A program made the translations under genes and the position numbers. Under the pieces are notes generated by a model. That model did no database searches. It was not told the DNA's origin and worked only from the letters and a program-made list of their open reading frames with translations. Below, one piece after another: positions 1 through 50,096 of a stretch of DNA of 64,000 nucleotides. Position 1 is the stretch's first letter; each line of letters starts with the position of its first letter. The DNA comes from SAR116 cluster bacterium AG-447-C21. GTDB taxonomy: Bacteria > Pseudomonadota > Alphaproteobacteria > Thalassobaculales > Thalassobaculaceae. The DNA lies in the NCBI GenBank assembly GCA_003212315.1, contig QCQB01000003.1, positions 1-64,000 of the forward strand. Reading direction: 5' to 3'.

Positions 1-96
1 GGCTGCAATGCCTCCTGGAGCGATGGAAGGAATGGACGCGGATATGATGGCTGCAATGCCTCCTGGAGCGATGGAAGGGATGGATCCGGCTATGGG
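1..96 (+). repeat. 48-bp tandem in-frame repeat
   Basis: Two consecutive 48-bp units (1-48 and 49-96) begin with the same roughly 30 bases, starting GGCTGCAATGCCTCCTGGAG. They then diverge slightly while keeping the encoded MPPGAMEGMD motif. More units may lie upstream of the window. Confidence 0.8.
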
Positions 97-493
97 TGGC
101 GGAAATATGGCGGAGACAGCGGCCAATCCGGGTATGGATAGTGGAATGGATGCGTTGGGTGCTGCGTTTGGCGCTCAAGGTGTTGAGCCGATGGCAGCGC
201 CTGACCCGATGGGAACAGCTCCACCGCCAGGAATGGAGGGTGATCCCATGGCTAATATGGCAGCGCCTGATCCAATGGGGACAGCCCCACCACCCGGAGC
301 GGAAACAGACCCAATGGCCGGACTAGATGCGGCGCTCGGCGGCGCAATGGATCAGGCTATGGATCAAGGCGCTGGGGCTGGGGCGCCAGATATGGGAGTT
401 CCGCCTGATGCGGGTACTGAGGCTCCAATGGATGCTCCAGATGTAGCGGAGCCCGACATGCCTCCTCCTCCGGACGAACCAATTGTTGGATGA
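2..493 (+). CDS. Met/Gly/Pro/Ala/Asp-rich repetitive protein, 3' part only
   Basis: The reading frame is open from the first bases of the window, so the gene starts upstream and only its C-terminal part (about 160 residues) is seen. The protein is low complexity, built from short repeats such as MPPGAMEGMD and APDPMGTAPPPG, and it ends in an acidic, proline-rich tail (PDMPPPPDEPIVG). I see no catalytic motif, zinc ligands or membrane segment. A strong hairpin terminator follows, so it is probably transcribed separately from the secretion genes that start at 772. It could be a flexible tail of a larger protein or a secreted polypeptide. I do not recognise a family. Confidence 0.6.
   Translation, partial: AAMPPGAMEGMDADMMAAMPPGAMEGMDPAMGGGNMAETAANPGMDSGMDALGAAFGAQGVEPMAAPDPMGTAPPPGMEGDPMANMAAPDPMGTAPPPGAETDPMAGLDAALGGAMDQAMDQGAGAGAPDMGVPPDAGTEAPMDAPDVAEPDMPPPPDEPIVG
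191..299 (+). repeat. 66-bp spaced direct repeat in the same gene
   Basis: Copies start at 191 and 257 and each encodes MAAPDPMGTAPPPG. The copies differ mainly at third codon positions, so the peptide repeat is better kept than the DNA. That points to selection on the protein rather than a very recent duplication. Confidence 0.75.
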
Positions 494-530
494 TACAATA
501 GTCACGTAACTTCGGAATAAATTTTTATGA

Positions 531-565
531 GGGGTTATGACTAGAAAGTCATAACCCCTTTATTT
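531..565 (+). terminator. Rho-independent terminator
   Basis: A perfect 12-bp stem (531-542 with 547-558, GGGGTTATGACT / AGTCATAACCCC) closes a 4-base AGAA loop and is followed by TTTATTTC. It ends the repetitive-protein transcript. Confidence 0.85.
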
Positions 566-771: not shown

Positions 772-2910
772 ATGGATACAAGATCACTTCGATCCTTATC
801 ACTGAGCACCATAGCGCTGGCGCGTCAATTTGGGGTCCGGATAACAGCGGAGCAATTAGAAGAAAAAATAGCCCGGGGACAGGTTTCGTCGACACGCGAG
901 CTGTCAAAGACATTTAACGAACAGGGTATAAAACTTCAGCTTTTGAAGCCAAATTTAAAAACGTTAACAAGTCGTTCCTATTACTTCCCATGTGTGGCAC
1001 TTCTCAGAGATGGAACGTCTAAAATACTGATTAATTGCTCGCAGAATGCAGAGGGCGGTTATGAATTTCAATCAATAGACCCGTTAGATCCAAGTAACAA
1101 AGTCGTCGTGGAAAAGGAAGATGAGTTTAAGAAAACCTGGAACGGATCGGTATATTTGGTCAGCAGAGAGACAGGCGTTTCGTCGCAGGACCGTATATTT
1201 GACTGGACTTGGTTCATTCCTGAACTTTATAGGTTTAAAGGCTTATTGGGTCTCACCTTCATAGCAGCGATACTGACCCATTTGTTAGGTTTAGCGCCCA
1301 TTGTTTTTATCCAGATATCGCTTGATAAGGTTTTGAATTATGGAGCTGTATCGACCTTGACTATTTTGGTCATGGGCGTCACAGCTGCCCTAATTTTCAA
1401 TGGTATATTGGGGTTCGTGCGCGATTACGTGATAAATTTTATTTCTACATCGATAGAGGCGCGCCTATCTGGCGATATTTTCGATAAAGTTATGGCCATG
1501 CCCGCATCAACCTTTCAAACGGGTTCACCTTCAGAGTTTGAAGGAGTGCTTCACTCTTCGGGAATTATAAAAAACTTCATATCACGACAAGTCCTTACAA
1601 CAATTTTCGATGCCACAGGGATCCTGGTTTTTCTTCCGGTTCTGTTTGGTTACAGCCCTTTTTTAGCCCTGATTGTAACTGTCTTTTCTATGATTATTGG
1701 CGCCATATCGCTATTTGGAAGGTGGCGCCAGAAAGAAGCTGGCAAAATAACTGGCCCAATAGAGCAATCGAAACGCAGAGCCGTTCAGTCGAGCGTTGCC
1801 GGTATTGAGACTATAAAAGCGTTTTCTCTGGAGGCTTCCCAAAGGAGAGAGTGGAGAAAAGTTTCATCAAGCAGTATTCGCCAAAGTATCCACGGCCAAG
1901 TCTCAAATATGATTATTACCAATGTCAATGCAACACTCACTCAACTTATGACTGTTGCCCTGGTTACAACGGGTGTTCTATTAGTACTTGGCAGTGGCCT
2001 TTCAGCGGGTGCTATCATTTCTTGTAATATGCTGGGGGGTAAACTTGTTTCACCAGTGACAGCTCTTTTCACTTTCTTTGCAGATCTCAACGGTTTTAAG
2101 TCAACGCTTGACTCAGTCGGTGCGAGTTGGAATGGACCAACGGAAAGAGTGGGGACAGGAAACGAAATTGTGATAAAGGGCGAGGTAGTCTGCAAAGATG
2201 TAGTCGTAAAGTTCGAAAATACCAATGCACTTGATGGCTTGACGCTAAACGTACCGGCTAGATCTAAAGTAGCAGTTGTGGGACCTTCAGGATCAGGCAA
2301 GACAACATTTTTGCGTTTATGCCAGGGATTCTTGAGACCCAATACGGGCTCGATGGAGATTGATGGTCAGAATATACGATATTTGAGCCTTGATAACTAT
2401 CGCAGTCAAAATACGCTTATCGACGCCAAACCAGTTTTTTTTGGTGCGACGATTGAAGAGAATTTAAGAAAAGTACAACCAAATATAAGCGAACGTGAGT
2501 TTACGGAGATTCTTGAAATTTCTGGTTTGCAAAAAGTATTGGACGAGCTACCCGAAGGAATTTCAACAGAAATTAATCAGTTTGGTATGCCATTATCGCA
2601 GGGGAACCGAGTGACGTTGGCTTTGGCTCGTGGGCTAATGGCGAGGCCGCGTCTTCTTTTAATTGATGAGGCACTTGCAAATTTTGACAAATCTACCCAG
2701 ATCGCGTTTTTTGAGAATTTTCCAAAAATATCAGAAATGAAGACCGTATTAATGGCTACACACGACATGCGATTAACGGCAGAGTTTGAGCAAATTATCG
2801 TATTGGATAAAGGTGTAGTTGTTGGGCAAGGCACTCATGATGAATTATTAAAGTCTTGCCCATTATACAAAGATCTTTGGACTATGGATCAAAAACTTTC
2901 GGGGATATAG
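772..2910 (+). CDS. Type I secretion ABC transporter (ATPase/permease) with degenerate C39-like domain
   Basis: A 712-residue exporter half-transporter of the inner membrane. Residues about 1-140 resemble a C39 peptidase fold, but the catalytic Cys and His are absent, as in the C39-like domains of RTX-type exporters that bind rather than cut substrate. The membrane domain spans about residues 150-440. The ATPase domain follows, with Walker A GPSGSGKTT (504-512), Walker B LLLIDEA with catalytic Glu633, and H-loop His664. Two loops are unusual: the signature reads LSQGN instead of LSGGQ, and the Q-loop glutamine position (before PVFFGATI) appears to be Ala. The membrane-fusion gene follows after 30 bp in an evident operon. 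The substrate is unknown and no outer-membrane TolC-type partner is nearby. Confidence 0.9.
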   Translation: MDTRSLRSLSLSTIALARQFGVRITAEQLEEKIARGQVSSTRELSKTFNEQGIKLQLLKPNLKTLTSRSYYFPCVALLRDGTSKILINCSQNAEGGYEFQSIDPLDPSNKVVVEKEDEFKKTWNGSVYLVSRETGVSSQDRIFDWTWFIPELYRFKGLLGLTFIAAILTHLLGLAPIVFIQISLDKVLNYGAVSTLTILVMGVTAALIFNGILGFVRDYVINFISTSIEARLSGDIFDKVMAMPASTFQTGSPSEFEGVLHSSGIIKNFISRQVLTTIFDATGILVFLPVLFGYSPFLALIVTVFSMIIGAISLFGRWRQKEAGKITGPIEQSKRRAVQSSVAGIETIKAFSLEASQRREWRKVSSSSIRQSIHGQVSNMIITNVNATLTQLMTVALVTTGVLLVLGSGLSAGAIISCNMLGGKLVSPVTALFTFFADLNGFKSTLDSVGASWNGPTERVGTGNEIVIKGEVVCKDVVVKFENTNALDGLTLNVPARSKVAVVGPSGSGKTTFLRLCQGFLRPNTGSMEIDGQNIRYLSLDNYRSQNTLIDAKPVFFGATIEENLRKVQPNISEREFTEILEISGLQKVLDELPEGISTEINQFGMPLSQGNRVTLALARGLMARPRLLLIDEALANFDKSTQIAFFENFPKISEMKTVLMATHDMRLTAEFEQIIVLDKGVVVGQGTHDELLKSCPLYKDLWTMDQKLSGI

Positions 2911-2940: not shown

Positions 2941-4734
2941 ATGGCTGGTGATCAATCCTTTACTGACGGTGAGTATATCTTCCGAGAGGGAGAAAGTGCA
3001 GTTTATGCATATATTGTTAAATCTGGAGTTGTGGAAATTACAAAACACAGTGCCTCTGGTGTACAGGTTTTAGCAGGTTTAGCTCCCCCCACCATCTTTG
3101 GGGAGATGGCTTTAATCGATGGAAATCCCAGAAGTGCAGGGGCGAGAGCTAAGGGTGATACTGTTGTAACAGAAGTTACAGAAGAAGCATTTTTAGGGTA
3201 CTTGCGTCAAAATCCAGAGGCAGCTGTCCGCATAATGAAGACTATCTCGGAAAATTTACGTGCTTCAAATCAATTGGTTGCAAAATATGAGCAGTCTGGG
3301 TCAGCTGGTAACGACCCTTTACGAGACGCAAACCCCAGCGCATTCGATTCAGGAGAGCTACAACCTGATGAGGATTTTGAGATAGATGACACTGATGCAA
3401 TCTATGAACAGGGCCCATCAAAACCACTTTTAATTACTGTCGTATCTTTACTGACATTCTTTATTGGTAGTGTGGTGTTTGCTTCTTTGAGCCAGGTCGA
3501 TACATCAGTGTCGGCTAGAGGAGAGTTTTTAACTGCAACGCCTAATGTGGTTGTTGAAGCAAGTGCGAGTTCGGTGGTAAAAAGTGTGGAAGTAGAGCGC
3601 GGGGACAAAGTCGAAAAAGGCCAGATTATAGCCTATTTGGATGACACTGTTGTTAAAGTCAATCTGAGGCAGAATCAGGAAAAGATCGATAACATCTACC
3701 AGTCGTTAATAAGATTTAACATGGAACAAGCTCTGGTGGATGATATCCAAAAATTTAAATTAAATGTTCAACTCGATAACTTATATCAGAAAACGGTGGA
3801 AAAATTAGGGTTGAAAAACACGCCTCCAAAGCTCAGCGATCTATATAAGACTACTTTAATAAAGAAGGTGTCGGAATATTCTGAGAAAATGAAGTCTTTT
3901 GACTCTAAGCTAAATAAAACTCGAAATGAATATGTATCGTCGAAAGAGCTTCTTGAAATTTCTAAAAAACAGACTGAAATAAAATCCAAACTGACAAAAG
4001 TACAGAAGGATCTCTATGATAGAAAGATAGGCTCATTACTAAAATATCTCTCTGCAAAAGACGCGCTTTTAAATGCAGAGAAATCTCAATTTAATGCTGA
4101 GACAGCTATCACAAAGCTTGCATCGGAGATAACCACTCAAACAGCAGATAAACAGGCGTTTATAGCCAGTTGGGCTTCAAAATTAACAAGCGATATAACC
4201 GCTAAAAATGAGGAGCTAATGCAGCTTGAGCAAGAAAAAATTAAACTTTCGCGCCTTGTAGATAATATAATAGTGAAGTCGCCAGCTGAAGGAATTGTCC
4301 TCGACATACCGGCTGTTTCCAGCGGTGGTAATATCAGAGAAGGCGAACCCATCGTCACATTGGTCCAGTCTGATCAACCCTTGTTTCTCGAAGTTGATAT
4401 AGACCCTAAAAAAATTACCGATATGAAGCTGGGAATGGATGTCTCCGTGAAACTGGATGCGATGCCTTTTCAGGAATTTGGCGGTTTAGATGGCGAGTTA
4501 ATATATATCTCTAATGATACCTTTAATGAGTCTGTATCAGGCGATAAAGGAGTTTTTTACAGAGGAAGAGTGAAGGTAGAGAATGTTAAAGATTCTCAAA
4601 TGCCTAGAGATTTTGTGTTGTCTCAGGGGATGTTGGCTTCAGCGGATATAATGGTTGGGAAACGGCCTCTAATTTCTTATTTCACATACCCTATTATGAA
4701 AGCATTTGATGAATCATTTAATGAACCGGAGTAA
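2941..4734 (+). CDS. HlyD-family membrane fusion protein with N-terminal cyclic-nucleotide-binding domain
   Basis: A 597-residue adaptor. Residues about 5-125 form a Crp/PKA-type cyclic-nucleotide-binding domain. Its phosphate-binding cassette is intact (FGEMALIDGNPRSAG, residues 53-67, with the conserved Gly-Glu and Arg-Ser-Ala). After an acidic linker comes one membrane helix (about 161-185), then a lipoyl-like half (about 190-235), a long periplasmic coiled coil (about 235-440) and the second lipoyl half (from IIVKSPAEG at 441), as in HlyD/LapC adaptors. Ordinary HlyD proteins have only a short cytoplasmic N terminus. The fusion therefore puts a ligand sensor on the cytoplasmic side of the exporter encoded just upstream. 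Whether it binds cAMP, cGMP or c-di-GMP, or is only structural, is inference. Confidence 0.9.
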   Translation: MAGDQSFTDGEYIFREGESAVYAYIVKSGVVEITKHSASGVQVLAGLAPPTIFGEMALIDGNPRSAGARAKGDTVVTEVTEEAFLGYLRQNPEAAVRIMKTISENLRASNQLVAKYEQSGSAGNDPLRDANPSAFDSGELQPDEDFEIDDTDAIYEQGPSKPLLITVVSLLTFFIGSVVFASLSQVDTSVSARGEFLTATPNVVVEASASSVVKSVEVERGDKVEKGQIIAYLDDTVVKVNLRQNQEKIDNIYQSLIRFNMEQALVDDIQKFKLNVQLDNLYQKTVEKLGLKNTPPKLSDLYKTTLIKKVSEYSEKMKSFDSKLNKTRNEYVSSKELLEISKKQTEIKSKLTKVQKDLYDRKIGSLLKYLSAKDALLNAEKSQFNAETAITKLASEITTQTADKQAFIASWASKLTSDITAKNEELMQLEQEKIKLSRLVDNIIVKSPAEGIVLDIPAVSSGGNIREGEPIVTLVQSDQPLFLEVDIDPKKITDMKLGMDVSVKLDAMPFQEFGGLDGELIYISNDTFNESVSGDKGVFYRGRVKVENVKDSQMPRDFVLSQGMLASADIMVGKRPLISYFTYPIMKAFDESFNEPE

Positions 4735-4744
4735 ATTATATATA

Positions 4745-4765
4745 AAAGAGTAGCAGTTACTCTGA
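4745..4765. terminator. Weak hairpin between convergent genes
   Basis: A 6-bp stem (AGAGTA 4747-4752 with TACTCT 4758-4763) around a 5-base loop lies just after the membrane-fusion gene, in the short gap to the convergent hydrolase gene. There is no clean U-run, so terminator activity is uncertain. Confidence 0.35.
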
Positions 4766-4789
4766 TATTGTTATTTTACCCTGAAAATA

Positions 4790-5662
4790 TTAATGAAGGT
4801 TCTTTATAAATTTGAATATTTCTTGTTTAACACCGGTATCAAAAAGCTTATTCCCTGTTATGGACAGAAGTATTTCGATGTGCCCAACGCCGTCGATGTT
4901 TTTAAAAGTTATGTGACCTCTTTCATTTTCTATTGCGTTGGCCAGTAGGACTGAATGTTTTGCGTACACTACTTTGTCGTTTTTTCCATGCAATAGCAGT
5001 CCAGGAGGCGCATCTGATCTCGCAAAAGTAGTAGGCTTGGTTTGTTCTATAGTGGGCGCAAAATTATTGAAAATGGGTTTGGTTGATGCAGTTTTTAATG
5101 GATTAAAAGCATGTGGGCCGGCTAATGAGACCCAGCCACTTATAATTTTTGTGGATGCTCCAGCTCTCTTTAAATAACGATTATCCAGAGCTAAAAGAGC
5201 TACTATATGTGCGCCCGCTGAATGACCAACAAGAATAATTTTGGGTGGATTATTTTTTTGTTCATAACGACGATGGGTCCAAACTATAGCTTTAGCAATA
5301 TCGTCAACAAATGCCGGGAATTGAATCTCAGGATAAAGGCGGTAGTCTGGAACTATCGTTGTATAGCCTTGTGATACAAATCGTTGCGCAATAAACCGAT
5401 AGTTGGAACGCTCTCCCGAACGCCAAGAGCCGCCATATATAAACATTATGATAATTTCTTCGTTTTCTTCTATGAGGGGTTCATAGATATCGAGCTTTTG
5501 CCTTCTATGAATGCCGTAGGCAACGTCTGGTTCTAGTTTATAACCATCATAGGGGGATAGAGGGTCCGCAAGTATTAAAGGAGAGCAACTTGCAGAGCAT
5601 AATGCTCCGAAGGCAACAATTAGAGTTAAAAGACGATGTACCTTAGAATTTCTGTAAATCAT
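4790..5662 (-). CDS. Exported alpha/beta hydrolase (esterase/lipase-like)
   Basis: A 290-residue protein with an N-terminal hydrophobic signal segment that ends near a cysteine (SASC), possibly a lipoprotein site though not a textbook lipobox. The alpha/beta-hydrolase core shows an oxyanion-type YGGSW, the nucleophile elbow GHSAGAH, an acid in HGKNDKVV, and a late GHIE histidine. This matches the BD-FAE/carboxylesterase group that cleaves small esters. The gene is convergent with the secretion operon and stands alone. The substrate is unknown, and its role could be envelope lipid or exogenous ester hydrolysis. Confidence 0.8.
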   Translation of the reverse strand: MIYRNSKVHRLLTLIVAFGALCSASCSPLILADPLSPYDGYKLEPDVAYGIHRRQKLDIYEPLIEENEEIIIMFIYGGSWRSGERSNYRFIAQRFVSQGYTTIVPDYRLYPEIQFPAFVDDIAKAIVWTHRRYEQKNNPPKIILVGHSAGAHIVALLALDNRYLKRAGASTKIISGWVSLAGPHAFNPLKTASTKPIFNNFAPTIEQTKPTTFARSDAPPGLLLHGKNDKVVYAKHSVLLANAIENERGHITFKNIDGVGHIEILLSITGNKLFDTGVKQEIFKFIKNLH

Positions 5663-14033: not shown

Positions 14034-14480
14034 ATGAAATCAATAGTTTATGCGTTTCTAAATTTGAATCGTATGAGCGTGAACCAACTGGTGCGCGAAA
14101 GAACTCTTATGCCGATAAAAATACTCCAACGTCGCATCGAAGACGTGGTCCTTGATTGTCGAATATTACGTTACCCGAAGTGGATGAATACTGATCGTGC
14201 AATGGTAGCTGCCGATATAAAACATGCCATTAAAATAGGTTGTTTTTTAGCGCCTGATGAATCTAGAGATCCCAATAGTTATATGACGGCTCAGAACCAT
14301 GCCGCTAGAGTTGCATGGTTGATAAAATTTGCCAACTTAGAAAAAGTCACAATCACGATAGCTGAAAATAAGGTGGTGGATGGGAACCACAGACTGTCTG
14401 CTTGTATTTACAGCAAAATCAAAGTTATCAACTGCGTTGTTATTCCAACTATTTCGAAGGTCTCCGTGATTGCGGCGTAA
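14034..14480 (+). CDS. Small ParB/sulfiredoxin-like domain protein
   Basis: A 148-residue frame. The C-terminal part has VVDGNHRLSACIYSKIKVINCVVI, split here as VVDGNHRLSA and IKVINCVVI, the glycine-asparagine-His-Arg core of ParB/Srx-like nucleotide-binding folds. No DNA-binding helix-turn-helix region follows, so it is not a chromosome-partition ParB. The start is uncertain: ATG 14034 has no good ribosome site, and ATG 14109 gives a 123-residue protein MPIKILQRRIED. Its 3' end overlaps the convergent GNAT gene by 32 bp. Function unknown. Confidence 0.55.
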   Translation: MKSIVYAFLNLNRMSVNQLVRERTLMPIKILQRRIEDVVLDCRILRYPKWMNTDRAMVAADIKHAIKIGCFLAPDESRDPNSYMTAQNHAARVAWLIKFANLEKVTITIAENKVVDGNHRLSACIYSKIKVINCVVIPTISKVSVIAA

Positions 14481-14928
14481 CGTTAGCACGAGTAAGTTTT
14501 AACCAAGCGGTTTTTCCGCCGTTAAAACGCTCTAGCCAGCAATTCGATACTTTAAAACCACGACCGAGATACCAGAGAACAGCTCTCTCATTAATACATA
14601 AAACATTTACACTGATGGCATCCTTTATTTGCTCTTGTGCTAAGTTTAATAACTTGGCGCCAATACCTTTTCTTTGGTATTTAGGGTGAACGAAAAGATA
14701 TTTTATATGCTGTTTTGCAATCACATAATCTACGAAAGCTACGTCTTTTCTATCGATGCTGGCTATAAGTCTACGACCCCCAAGTTTTGGTAATCGAAAT
14801 CGGTTTTGATGTTCTATTGATGACTGGGTCTCCGGATCGGTAATAGCTGGATCATCCAATGCCAGATCCATGATACCCTGGCAAATAATATCATCGAAAC
14901 TGCTACCGTGGCGTAGGTTCATTTTCAT
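14449..14928 (-). CDS. GNAT-family N-acetyltransferase
   Basis: A 159-residue acetyl-CoA-dependent acetyltransferase. The acetyl-CoA-binding motif A is clear (FVHPKYQRKGIGAKLL, near residue 75), followed by the C-terminal N-x-x-A-x-x-x-Y pattern (NERAVLWYLGRGF). It overlaps the upstream DUF1045 gene by the ATGA quartet, so the two are translationally coupled. Because that gene and the divergent phnM are linked to phosphonate metabolism, a PhnO-like aminoalkylphosphonate acetyltransferase role is possible, but the substrate cannot be read from sequence. Confidence 0.8.
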   Translation of the reverse strand: MKMNLRHGSSFDDIICQGIMDLALDDPAITDPETQSSIEHQNRFRLPKLGGRRLIASIDRKDVAFVDYVIAKQHIKYLFVHPKYQRKGIGAKLLNLAQEQIKDAISVNVLCINERAVLWYLGRGFKVSNCWLERFNGGKTAWLKLTRANVTPQSRRPSK

Positions 14929-15644
14929 TTCTGGAGCGCGAATTGTTGGATTTGCAGAAAATCAGCTTCTGAACTTTCTTGAACAAAAAGTGAAATAGAA
15001 TTTACCTTTGTGGCACGATCTAAATCCTCAGAAAAATGTGAAGACGCTGCGTTTACCATAAACTCTTGGTCTGATCTACATGGAATCGTTTCTGTTAATG
15101 TCATATGAAAACGGAAATCATCAAAGACGTAAGGATAACCCCATTGAAGCAAATTTTTATCCTCGCTAGCGGTTAGATTCGACATTCGGCGTTTATCTAT
15201 TTCCTTTTGATGGAGAGGAGCTCTGAACTGATCTAAGTTTTCAACTAACTGTGAGGCTAAATTTTGCATTTTTTGTTCGTTTGGGTTCATCATCAAAGCG
15301 ATAAAGTTTCCAAGTTTCTGCACCTTTAAATTTATAGAAAAAGGTTTACTAAGAGCGGATAATCTATGAATTTGCGAACAAAGATCCTTTAATGTGAATT
15401 TCGTATTCAGTCGAAATGGGGCTTTTAAAGTTGCATGAAAACCGTATCGTCGCGGCGTTTTTGTCACACTATAGAAATAGCTTGACGATACCCCTTTTAT
15501 GTTTGGTTGTTTTATAGATTTACCGGAGCTTGAATCTCGTCCTAACCACTGACTTCCAGTACTGTGAAGATTTGAGTCAATTTCAGGTGAAAAATAAATG
15601 GCAAATCTTTGGGAGTCATTCGCAGATTTTGGTAAAGTTTTCAT
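14925..15644 (-). CDS. DUF1045 family protein (2H phosphoesterase fold)
   Basis: About 240 residues with two H-x-T motifs, FHATLKAPF near residue 80 and FHMTLTET near residue 190, the hallmark of 2H phosphoesterases. The N-terminal FAIYFSPE and WLGRDSSSG fit DUF1045, a family often found with phnM in C-P lyase operons and thought to act on phosphorylated ribose intermediates. I chose the ATG at 15644. The frame extends to 15725, but the added 27 residues are not family-like, and it would then overlap the divergent phnM start. Downstream it couples to a GNAT gene. Confidence 0.8.
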   Translation of the reverse strand: MKTLPKSANDSQRFAIYFSPEIDSNLHSTGSQWLGRDSSSGKSIKQPNIKGVSSSYFYSVTKTPRRYGFHATLKAPFRLNTKFTLKDLCSQIHRLSALSKPFSINLKVQKLGNFIALMMNPNEQKMQNLASQLVENLDQFRAPLHQKEIDKRRMSNLTASEDKNLLQWGYPYVFDDFRFHMTLTETIPCRSDQEFMVNAASSHFSEDLDRATKVNSISLFVQESSEADFLQIQQFALQK

Positions 15645-15723
15645 TCGTTTTAAATAGAACTCCTGTAATTTCGAATTATAGTGACTATCAGTATTAACAT
15701 CAAATTTATTAGGAAAGCATAGC

Positions 15724-16890
15724 ATGCTTCAGAAAAGGGATAGCTTTATCATCAAGGGAGGTAGTGTTTTAATGCCTGATGCTACCTTTATGGAGACAGA
15801 CTTAAAAATAAGTAACGGTTTTATAGACACTATTGGTGATTTATCAGCTTCAAAATTACGAAACATAAATGCTTCGGGATTGATGGTGCTTCCCGGCGCT
15901 GTAGACCTTCACGGAGATGCCTTTGAACGTCAAATTATGCCTCGCCCTGGTGTTTCGTTTCCATTGGATATGGCCCTTTTTGAAACTGACCGACAGCTTG
16001 TAAGTAATGGAATTACTACAGCCTTTCATGGGATAACATATTCATGGGAGCCGGGTTTAAGAGGTCGAGATATTACTATTGAGCTTATAGAATGCTTGGA
16101 ACGACTACGAAGTAACTTTTTTTGTTCCACAAAATTCCATCTAAGATTTGAGACCTATAATCTCGAAGCCGTTGAAGAAATAGAGAGCTGGCTCGACACA
16201 AAGCGAATAGATTTCTTAGCCTTTAATGACCATATGCCGTCCATTTTAAGGAAAATTAAAACGGGTCAGTCGCTCGCTCGGTTTGTTGAAAGAACAGGTC
16301 TGAATGAAAAACAATTCATAGCATTAACAAAAAAGTTAAAAGATCGAAAATGTGAAGTTAAACCTGTGATAGAGCGATTATCAAGGACAGCCTTAGATAG
16401 TCGGGTTCCTTTGGCTAGCCACGACGATGAGACTTCTGAACAAAGGCAGTTTTTTGATAAAATTGGATGTAAAATCGCTGAATTCCCAGAAACTGAGGAG
16501 GCTATCAATGAAGCTGGAAGGTTACAAAATAATATTGTTTTAGGAGCGCCAAATATTATCCGGGGAGGTAGCCATATGGGCGCATCTGGTTTATCGGCAG
16601 CTGATAATATCGGGCAAGGCTTGGGTAACATATTATGCTCTGATTATTATTATCCGTCACTTATCAATGCTCCAGCTGAATTGGTAAGGAAACAAATAAT
16701 GGATTTTCCATCCGCATGGAATATGATCTCGAAAAACGCGGCATCTGCAGCTAATCTTTTCGACCGTGGAGAGATAGTTGAGGGTAAAAGGGCCGACCTG
16801 GTTTTATTGGACGCAACAGTTCCAAGATATTCTCAGTTAGCGGCAACAATTGTTGCCGGAAATTTAGTTTATCAATCTCGATACGTTTAA
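15724..16890 (+). CDS. phnM: Alpha-D-ribose 1-methylphosphonate 5-triphosphate diphosphatase
   Basis: A 388-residue amidohydrolase-fold enzyme that, in the C-P lyase pathway, removes pyrophosphate from ribose-1-alkylphosphonate 5-triphosphate. It shows the metal-binding VDLHGDAFERQ motif near residue 60 with the typical MPRPGV after it. It also shows SHDDET near residue 235 and NIIRGGSHMG later. It is divergent from the DUF1045-GNAT pair. The C-P lyase core genes (phnGHIJKL) are not in the window, so phnM either works with genes elsewhere or has been left behind. Confidence 0.93.
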   Translation: MLQKRDSFIIKGGSVLMPDATFMETDLKISNGFIDTIGDLSASKLRNINASGLMVLPGAVDLHGDAFERQIMPRPGVSFPLDMALFETDRQLVSNGITTAFHGITYSWEPGLRGRDITIELIECLERLRSNFFCSTKFHLRFETYNLEAVEEIESWLDTKRIDFLAFNDHMPSILRKIKTGQSLARFVERTGLNEKQFIALTKKLKDRKCEVKPVIERLSRTALDSRVPLASHDDETSEQRQFFDKIGCKIAEFPETEEAINEAGRLQNNIVLGAPNIIRGGSHMGASGLSAADNIGQGLGNILCSDYYYPSLINAPAELVRKQIMDFPSAWNMISKNAASAANLFDRGEIVEGKRADLVLLDATVPRYSQLAATIVAGNLVYQSRYV

Positions 16891-48428: not shown

Positions 48429-50096
48429 TTAAAGTTTTTTGACGCTTTTATTTTTGTACATCGCCCGGTCGGCCTCGGCCATTATCTGCGCTAAGTCCTT
48501 ACTCTTGTACCCGTCGATTTCTATGACCCCAATGGATGCTCCAAATGGCCGACTGCGGTCACTGGTAAATTTGGAGAAGAAAGGCTCATCTTCAATAAAC
48601 GAGCTTAAAATGGACTTAGCATTCCTGTTTCCTTTTGCATCAAACCAAATAGCGAATTCATCTCCGCCTAATCGTGCTACCAAATCGTTCTCTTGGGCTA
48701 AATGGGTTAATTTTTTCGACAGTTCCGTTAGCACTTCATCGCCAGCTTGATGACCCAGTCGATCATTAATAAGTTTAAAATTATCAAGGTCTATATATGC
48801 TAAGCTACCTATTGTAGTTTGAGTTTTGGGTTGGTGTAATAGCTTTTTTTCGAGAGTTTCGGAGAAAGTTCGGCGATTTAGCAACCCCGTAAGCGGATCT
48901 GTGGTGGATAGTCTTTCTAAGCTTTTCTGAATATGAAGATGTTGCAGTTCAACGCCAACAAGATGGGTTGCCTGTTCAAATAAAGAAAAATCTTCTCCAT
49001 CCCACTGCTTGCTTTCTCCAATTCCCCAAAAAATTAGGATTCCGTTTGTTTTATTTTTATATTTTGTAACGTAGGCTGCAAACCGATTATCTAATTTATC
49101 AAAAACGAGGGGAGTATCTTTATTGATACCGTCTTTTAGTGCGTCTTCAATTGAAAATGGCAAGTTTCCATCCATTATGATTTGCGGTTTGTCTTCATCG
49201 TTTTCAAATTTGAATATTTGGCAACCATCTGCGGCTAGGGTTTTTGTAATCGCTTGCACAGCCGATTCCAGGGAGCTGAGTTGCTCATCCGGTTCTCTGA
49301 TTTGGTTATTTATATATTGAAGTATGCGTTCTTTGTTTTGGGCTCTGGATAATTCAGCATCCCGTTGTCTGTCATTCGTAACATCTCGTCCAATACCCCT
49401 CGCCCCTATCCAATATCCATCTTTCCCAAATAATGGAAGGGCCGATGTGAGTAGGATGCCGGTCGTCCCGTCTGCTTTCAGAATATTCACTTCTACGCTG
49501 CTGATTTCAGTTCTTGTGGTGAATGGAGAGCTAAGCCCATCATTTTTGTCGGGAACCAATATTTCATCGGAGCAGGTCCCTAATATCATTTTGGGTTGAT
49601 AACCAAATTTACTTGCACCTGATATAAATGAGAAAATTCCCGTGTTATCAGTCTCCCATAAAAAATTGTTTGACGTCATGACAAGATTTTCTACTCGGTC
49701 TACCGATTTTAAGAATTCGCATGTGAATTGTGGATTAAACAACTTTTCTTTTTGTGTAAGGTAACGGTAGCGGCCCCCATCTAACTGCGTTGCAGTGAAT
49801 TCTAAATAAGAATTTTTAGAGGGGTCCCAAAGTGTGATGTGTTCCGAATTACCCTTAATATTTAAAACATCAGAAGCAAGTCGTGTTAAAAGTTCTGGTT
49901 TATCCAGTATTAATGACTCAATTAGTTTTCTAGCTAGGAAATTGGCCGCCACAACATTTTTTTGGGAATCAAAAACGAGATGGAACGTATTTTGGTGATA
50001 TAAGGCACAATCTTTCTCAATAAGAGAAGATAACGCAAGTGCTTCATGTGCCGTCTTGTCTATAATAAATCTATTTTTTGCAGCCGATGGATCCAT
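48429..50096 (-). CDS. PAS/GAF-type sensor diguanylate cyclase
   Basis: A 555-residue signalling protein with no clear membrane helix. A PAS-like region (about 140-245, with NNFLWETDNTGIFSFISG) is followed by a GAF-like region (about 260-385). A C-terminal GGDEF domain carries LTGLLNRRTF and the active LGGDEFAIWF motif, so it should make c-di-GMP. The inhibitory RxxD site five residues upstream reads QEND, lacking the Arg, which suggests no product feedback. It lies alone, with no EAL domain. The ligand of the sensor domains is unknown. Confidence 0.9.
   Translation of the reverse strand: MDPSAAKNRFIIDKTAHEALALSSLIEKDCALYHQNTFHLVFDSQKNVVAANFLARKLIESLILDKPELLTRLASDVLNIKGNSEHITLWDPSKNSYLEFTATQLDGGRYRYLTQKEKLFNPQFTCEFLKSVDRVENLVMTSNNFLWETDNTGIFSFISGASKFGYQPKMILGTCSDEILVPDKNDGLSSPFTTRTEISSVEVNILKADGTTGILLTSALPLFGKDGYWIGARGIGRDVTNDRQRDAELSRAQNKERILQYINNQIREPDEQLSSLESAVQAITKTLAADGCQIFKFENDEDKPQIIMDGNLPFSIEDALKDGINKDTPLVFDKLDNRFAAYVTKYKNKTNGILIFWGIGESKQWDGEDFSLFEQATHLVGVELQHLHIQKSLERLSTTDPLTGLLNRRTFSETLEKKLLHQPKTQTTIGSLAYIDLDNFKLINDRLGHQAGDEVLTELSKKLTHLAQENDLVARLGGDEFAIWFDAKGNRNAKSILSSFIEDEPFFSKFTSDRSRPFGASIGVIEIDGYKSKDLAQIMAEADRAMYKNKSVKKL

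Follow-up and report, generated by a model that had tools for sequence, protein, structure and literature searches.

Type I secretion is usually described as being controlled by gene expression and by recognition of the cargo. The locus described here lies near the start of a 64,000-nucleotide stretch of DNA from SAR116 cluster bacterium AG-447-C21 (referred to as the window) and raises the question of whether a type I secretion adaptor can itself be the receptor of a second messenger and, if so, of which one and to what effect. An earlier note, made from the sequence alone, had described a HlyD-type adaptor with one membrane helix carrying a cyclic-nucleotide-binding (CNB) domain, and this architecture was borne out (Table 1). 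The open reading frame at 2941..4734 starts with ATG and translates with zero internal stops. Its N-terminal part, for which the note had proposed a domain search, matched PF00027 significantly, with 73.4 bits against a cut-off of 27.5 and covering profile positions 2–89 of 89, and its remainder matched TIGR01843 (type_I_hlyD) with 233.4 bits against a cut-off of 208.65 over model positions 4–421 of 422, along with PF13437 (E 5.2e-12). Exactly one hydropathy peak was found in the adaptor, indicating one N-terminal membrane anchor between the CNB and HlyD parts. As HlyD adaptors have an N-in topology, it follows by analogy that the CNB domain should sit in the cytosol.

Table 1. Features of the CNB-HlyD locus in the window and related neighbours at other fused loci (L handles, with positions within each locus).
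Feature	Position	Strand	Basis or remark
Met/Pro/Gly/Asp repeat protein, 3' end, ending PDEPIVG; candidate cargo	2..493	+	cut by contig edge
Terminator-like hairpin, 14-pair stem then T-rich tail	529..560	+	consensus match; between candidate cargo and exporter genes
HlyB/LssB-like ABC exporter, 712 aa, N-terminal C39-like domain without catalytic Cys	772..2910	+	PF00664, PF00005, PF03412
CNB-HlyD fusion gene, 597 aa	2941..4734	+	intact ORF; PF00027 and HlyD matches
CNB domain, residues 5-91	2953..3213	+	PF00027, E 1.4e-20
Phosphate-binding cassette, residues 52-68	3094..3144	+	G54, E55, R64, S65, A66 invariant in 19/19 fusions
C-helix after beta roll, residues 92-117	3214..3291	+	secondary structure of two models
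Conserved acidic juxtamembrane segment, residues 147-161	3379..3423	+	mean pairwise identity 0.46 vs 0.18 in the preceding linker
Single membrane helix, residues 162-184	3424..3492	+	hydropathy peak 163-181
Periplasmic HlyD part: lipoyl halves, coiled coil, beta barrel	3493..4731	+	TIGR01843, residues 163-595; PF13437, PF16576
Further candidate cargo loci	L037:439-1335; L039:2954-4531, 4702-5658; L045:325-2649; L059:4726-5598; L161:4856-5410
M10/RTX neighbours	L164:12494-14356; L165:1225-3249; L167:7423-9426
DUF1538/PII-like neighbours	L043:1-2322; L059:12920-14074; L126:2684-5057; L135:2534-4906

The first 145 residues of the adaptor matched, among PDB sequences, PKG, PKA regulatory subunits and CRP-family proteins (best E 9.4e-16). 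An AlphaFold model of the CNB domain alone was of moderate confidence (pLDDT 76, pTM 0.62; 1 good model of five), and in a Foldseek search it retrieved cAMP-binding CRP/GlxR structures with E down to 1.7e-8 and a TM score of ~0.6; the full-length model of the adaptor was poor and unfit for describing the geometry between sensor and membrane. The cassette of the fusion reads FGEMALIDGNPRSAGARA over residues 53–70, and the Gly-Glu and Arg-Ser-Ala contacts that the note had pointed out proved invariant across the fusions compared (Table 1). Among 19 diverse members, mean pairwise identity was higher in the cassette (0.825) than in any other region, with 0.55 for the whole CNB domain or the barrel and 0.18 for the linker. 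Many CNB-fold domains have roles that do not involve a ligand, and the domain might likewise have stopped signalling and serve as a structural or docking module for assembly, hexamerisation or cargo capture, in keeping with the fact that SAR116 and most other fused lineages have no linked cyclase. However, an invariant ligand cassette, here the most conserved stretch of the protein, would be superfluous in such a module, and it would remain unexplained why cyclases were gained beside the adaptor in two lineages (see below), so that this alternative is judged quite improbable.

The survey across genomes suggested in the note showed that the fusion is widespread and kept next to an exporter. It was found full-length in eight further SAR116 genomes (74–99% aa identity) and, at 31% aa identity, in one distant alphaproteobacterial family, while scanning GTDB-species contigs yielded 22 loci of full length, overlapping the eight SAR116 genomes, with members in SAR116, in Planktomarina/Rhodobacteraceae (66–69%) and in Gammaproteobacteria including the OM182 clade (49–54%). 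In sampled surveys the fusion occurred in ~10 of 385 alphaproteobacterial genomes and, beyond Alphaproteobacteria but within the phylum, in 13 more. The total came to ~45 genomes, spread over SAR116, Rhodobacteraceae, OM182-type Gammaproteobacteria, further alphaproteobacterial families and another class. The same stop-free architecture thus recurs in single-cell, metagenome and distant-family assemblies. This refutes the possibility that a frameshift (as considered in the note), a chimeric assembly or a mis-annotation had fused two genes; no observation spoke for it, although the genome is a draft of 120 contigs, and we give it virtually no weight.

In a tree of the adaptor with 29 fused and 17 unfused rows, of which the unfused L025 and L119 look mis-extracted, the fusion cost 1–2 state changes, and it may therefore have had a single origin. 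Between the window and a Rhodobacteraceae locus, the exporter and adaptor were 82% and 68% identical, respectively, above the 55–56% identity of alanyl-tRNA synthetase between that Rhodobacteraceae locus and two SAR116 genomes; these values suggest that the secretion module probably moved between orders. A plasmid- or virus-borne origin was rejected, as the plasmid matches listed reach the adaptor part only (query start at residue 99 or later) and the viral contigs searched for the fusion gave zero matches. The Rhodobacteraceae adaptors of loci L043–L052 and L057 also carry ~50 extra coiled-coil residues (alignment A1, columns about 384–450), a block that resembles an internal duplication and may reflect a longer periplasmic hairpin.

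The exporter gene stops 30 bp upstream of the adaptor gene. Its product comprises C39-like, membrane and ATPase domains only, with no CNB domain on the exporter chain, and the ATPase motifs GPSGSGKT, LSQG, LLIDEA and THD can be read in its sequence. Its first Cys is residue 74, and in the absence of any earlier one the C39-like domain can be likened to that of HlyB. No TolC gene was found next to the adaptor in the window; one adjoins the fused system in relatives L059, L126, L128 and L129. Terminator-like matches were about as frequent as in shuffles (4 observed versus 3.8 expected), the one listed in Table 1 having by far the longest stem. Elsewhere in the window, a GGDEF-domain protein is encoded at 48429–50096 on the minus strand (E 5.9e-36), 44 kb from the adaptor, and consecutive GNAT-like, DUF1045 and amidohydrolase genes at 14449–16890 resemble a phosphonate-use cluster (PhnM-like). 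Two unrelated lineages, the Planktomarina-type UBA4588 and family f9, have genes for a DUF1538 membrane protein and for PII-like proteins next to the fused system.

Going beyond the earlier note, a putative cargo gene was recognized at the contig edge. The window begins at base 1 of its contig, so the gene is incomplete there; its intact relatives encode proteins of roughly 180–770 aa. Met, Pro, Gly, Ala and Asp are highly abundant in the candidate cargo proteins, with 0–2 Lys/Arg in 130–774 residues, and in 21 such neighbours, some cut by contig ends, the Lys+Arg count of 0–2 compares with 23–154 Asp+Glu. Repeats with a 16-residue period occur in some, including the longest, most finish with a short acidic/proline tail and a hydrophobic end (DEPIVG, DDPIV or DVV), and none of the candidate cargo proteins matched a Pfam family above cut-off. 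In ten SAR116 genomes the pattern D-[DE]-P-[IVM]-V-G-stop gave 8 matches, 7 of them at genes beside this exporter and the eighth at a contig edge (G027 C4, not placed), compared with 0 matches for the reversed control pattern. Because the C-terminal motif clusters at genes beside the exporter, the repeat protein is the best candidate for its cargo. One subclade of the fusion instead has a serralysin-like M10 metallopeptidase with RTX repeats as its neighbour, and since serralysin-like M10/RTX proteins are a classical type I substrate class, this supports a role of the system in protein export.

The second addition to the note concerns cyclase genes that adjoin the operon in relatives. Upstream DNA could be read in seven Rhodobacteraceae loci (L043, L045, L046, L048, L050, L051 and L052), and each of them encodes a class III cyclase protein of 294–296 aa beside the exporter (PF00211, E 6.5e-16 in L045 and 8.4e-16 in L043). 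The gene runs in the same direction as that of the exporter, which it immediately precedes in six of the seven; in L043 a repeat gene lies between the two, and the linkage has therefore survived rearrangement. Residues D11, K51, D55, D104, N111 and R115 are invariant in these proteins (alignment A2), a set comprising two metal-binding Asp, a Lys/Asp adenine pair and Asn/Arg that in class III cyclases marks the adenylate type. In family f9 (G043, G176 and G274) the genes run in the order TolC, repeat protein, exporter, CNB-HlyD, CHASE2-cyclase, CNB, CNB, DUF1538 (pieced together from two contig ends for G274), with the CHASE2-cyclase start overlapping the adaptor stop by 4 bp and its catalytic residues likewise canonical. 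On these residues the linked cyclases are predicted to be class III adenylate cyclases. Altogether, a cyclase occurred in 12 of 47 fused loci (601 kb), near the system yet outside the operon in two of them (L047 and L049), and in none of 21 unfused HlyD control loci (294 kb); the fused loci are mutually related, so that no p-value is given and the fair count is two independent cyclase associations. Weak cyclase matches in L160/L161 were not counted, the two checked being TPR/glycosyltransferase-41 proteins by Pfam. No linked cyclase was found in the SAR116 loci, including that of the window, or in most other fused lineages. SAR116 would consequently need a cyclase acting in trans, and the genome of the window encodes five class III cyclase domains.

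The linked cyclase might signal elsewhere, for example to CRP or to extra CNB proteins, its position being incidental or reflecting common transcription only, and the two stand-alone CNB proteins in the family f9 gene run would be possible receptors. We consider this highly improbable, given that two different cyclase types accompany the same fused adaptor and none the 21 controls, and that the linkage is kept despite the changed gene order in L043. A more serious alternative, although still an unlikely one, is that the CNB domain is a true sensor that gates export but responds to a different ligand (cGMP, ppGpp/GTP or a cyclic dinucleotide, for instance), as was found for HetC. The CNB domain of HetC binds ppGpp (Kd 59 µM) and not cAMP (PMC10986499), cGMP-dependent kinases are among the best PDB sequence matches of the domain studied here, and the window also contains the gene for the GGDEF protein. 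In contrast, the canonical Glu and Arg-Ser-Ala contacts occur in the cassette of every member, the residue that follows Arg is, as in CRP, a Ser, and the adenylate-type Lys/Asp are present in the linked cyclases.

Because cyclases are linked to fused adaptors and absent from the 21 unfused controls, cAMP-gated export is the best explanation of the locus. Judged from domains, residues and gene neighbourhoods, it is on balance somewhat probable that the type I secretion adaptor binds a cyclic nucleotide directly, cAMP being the likeliest one, and thereby gates export. The second-messenger control suggested in the note has thus gained adenylate-cyclase-type genes linked in two lineages, the ligand and the gating staying predictions. 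Counting against cAMP, the linkage spans those two lineages, not many, and is missing from SAR116 and most other fused lineages, and the nearest characterized CNB exporter, HetC, binds ppGpp instead (PMC10986499).

In the proposed mechanism, the HlyB-like exporter, the HlyD-type adaptor and a TolC partner encoded elsewhere would export the acidic repeat protein encoded next to them, and every adaptor subunit would hold one CNB domain in the cytosol. Occupation of the conserved cassette by cAMP would move the CNB C-helix and the acidic juxtamembrane segment, the latter being the positional counterpart of the HlyD cytosolic segment for cargo engagement and TolC recruitment, and this movement would license one or the other of these steps, so that export would be permitted or, less likely, blocked. 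The 58 cytosolic residues of HlyD in the haemolysin system are dispensable for assembly and critical for HlyA secretion, and a charged segment within them appears to control TolC recruitment (PMC8953716). The cytosolic regions of adaptors are described as essential for substrate recognition and complex assembly, and very little is known of their structure (PMC8277102). The fuller scheme, that of a widespread, laterally transferred module in which cAMP from a neighbouring cyclase (in some lineages) binds the adaptor CNB domains and post-translationally opens the type I channel for a Lys/Arg-free acidic repeat protein, is advanced more tentatively and may fall slightly short of an even chance.

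If true, an adaptor-fused receptor with a neighbouring cyclase in some operons would allow protein export to be controlled quickly and post-translationally, and it would place a measurable switch on the cytosolic segment of the adaptor, a region of little-known structure. The fusion is present in abundant ocean bacteria (SAR116 and Planktomarina-type Rhodobacteraceae) and is accompanied by a candidate cargo family for which there is no Pfam model. Within the open-access literature searched, no paper on a CNB domain on a type I adaptor was found, in agreement with the note, which knew of no characterized case; the parts are known, and the combination, its spread and the linked cyclases appear to be new within that literature.

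With the haemolysin-type HlyBD-TolC system, the locus shares an HlyB-like exporter with a Cys-less C39-like domain, a type I HlyD adaptor and an adjoining gene for the candidate cargo, and in family f9 the operon also includes TolC. It differs in that the adaptor has ~160 residues with a CNB domain in place of the short cytosolic segment of HlyD (58 residues) and in that a repeat protein free of Lys and Arg, and not an RTX toxin, is the usual candidate cargo. The closest published precedent is HetC of Nostoc PCC 7120, a CNB-peptidase-ABC exporter whose CNB domain can be essential, with ppGpp as ligand (PMC10986499). Both are C39-family export systems with a cytosolic CNB domain; in HetC, however, this domain is on the exporter and not on the adaptor, the peptidase Cys is active whereas the C39 domain here is Cys-less, there is no adaptor gene nearby, and the ligand found is ppGpp (PMC10986499). 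Membership of the HetC type (PCAT) was rejected, as two of its defining features, a CNB domain on the exporter chain and a catalytic Cys, are lacking. With CRP/PKA-type CNB domains, the adaptor domain has in common the beta roll, the cassette FGExAL...RSA with its Glu and Arg-Ser contacts and the C-helix after the roll, whereas their output is DNA binding or kinase inhibition and that of the present protein would be a secretion adaptor reached through a membrane helix. In the LapA/LapD/LapG system, c-di-GMP acts through a periplasmic protease to control the surface release of a type I adhesin. The two would have in common that a second messenger decides what happens to a type I cargo at the post-translational level, whereas in the present system the secretion adaptor would itself be the receptor.
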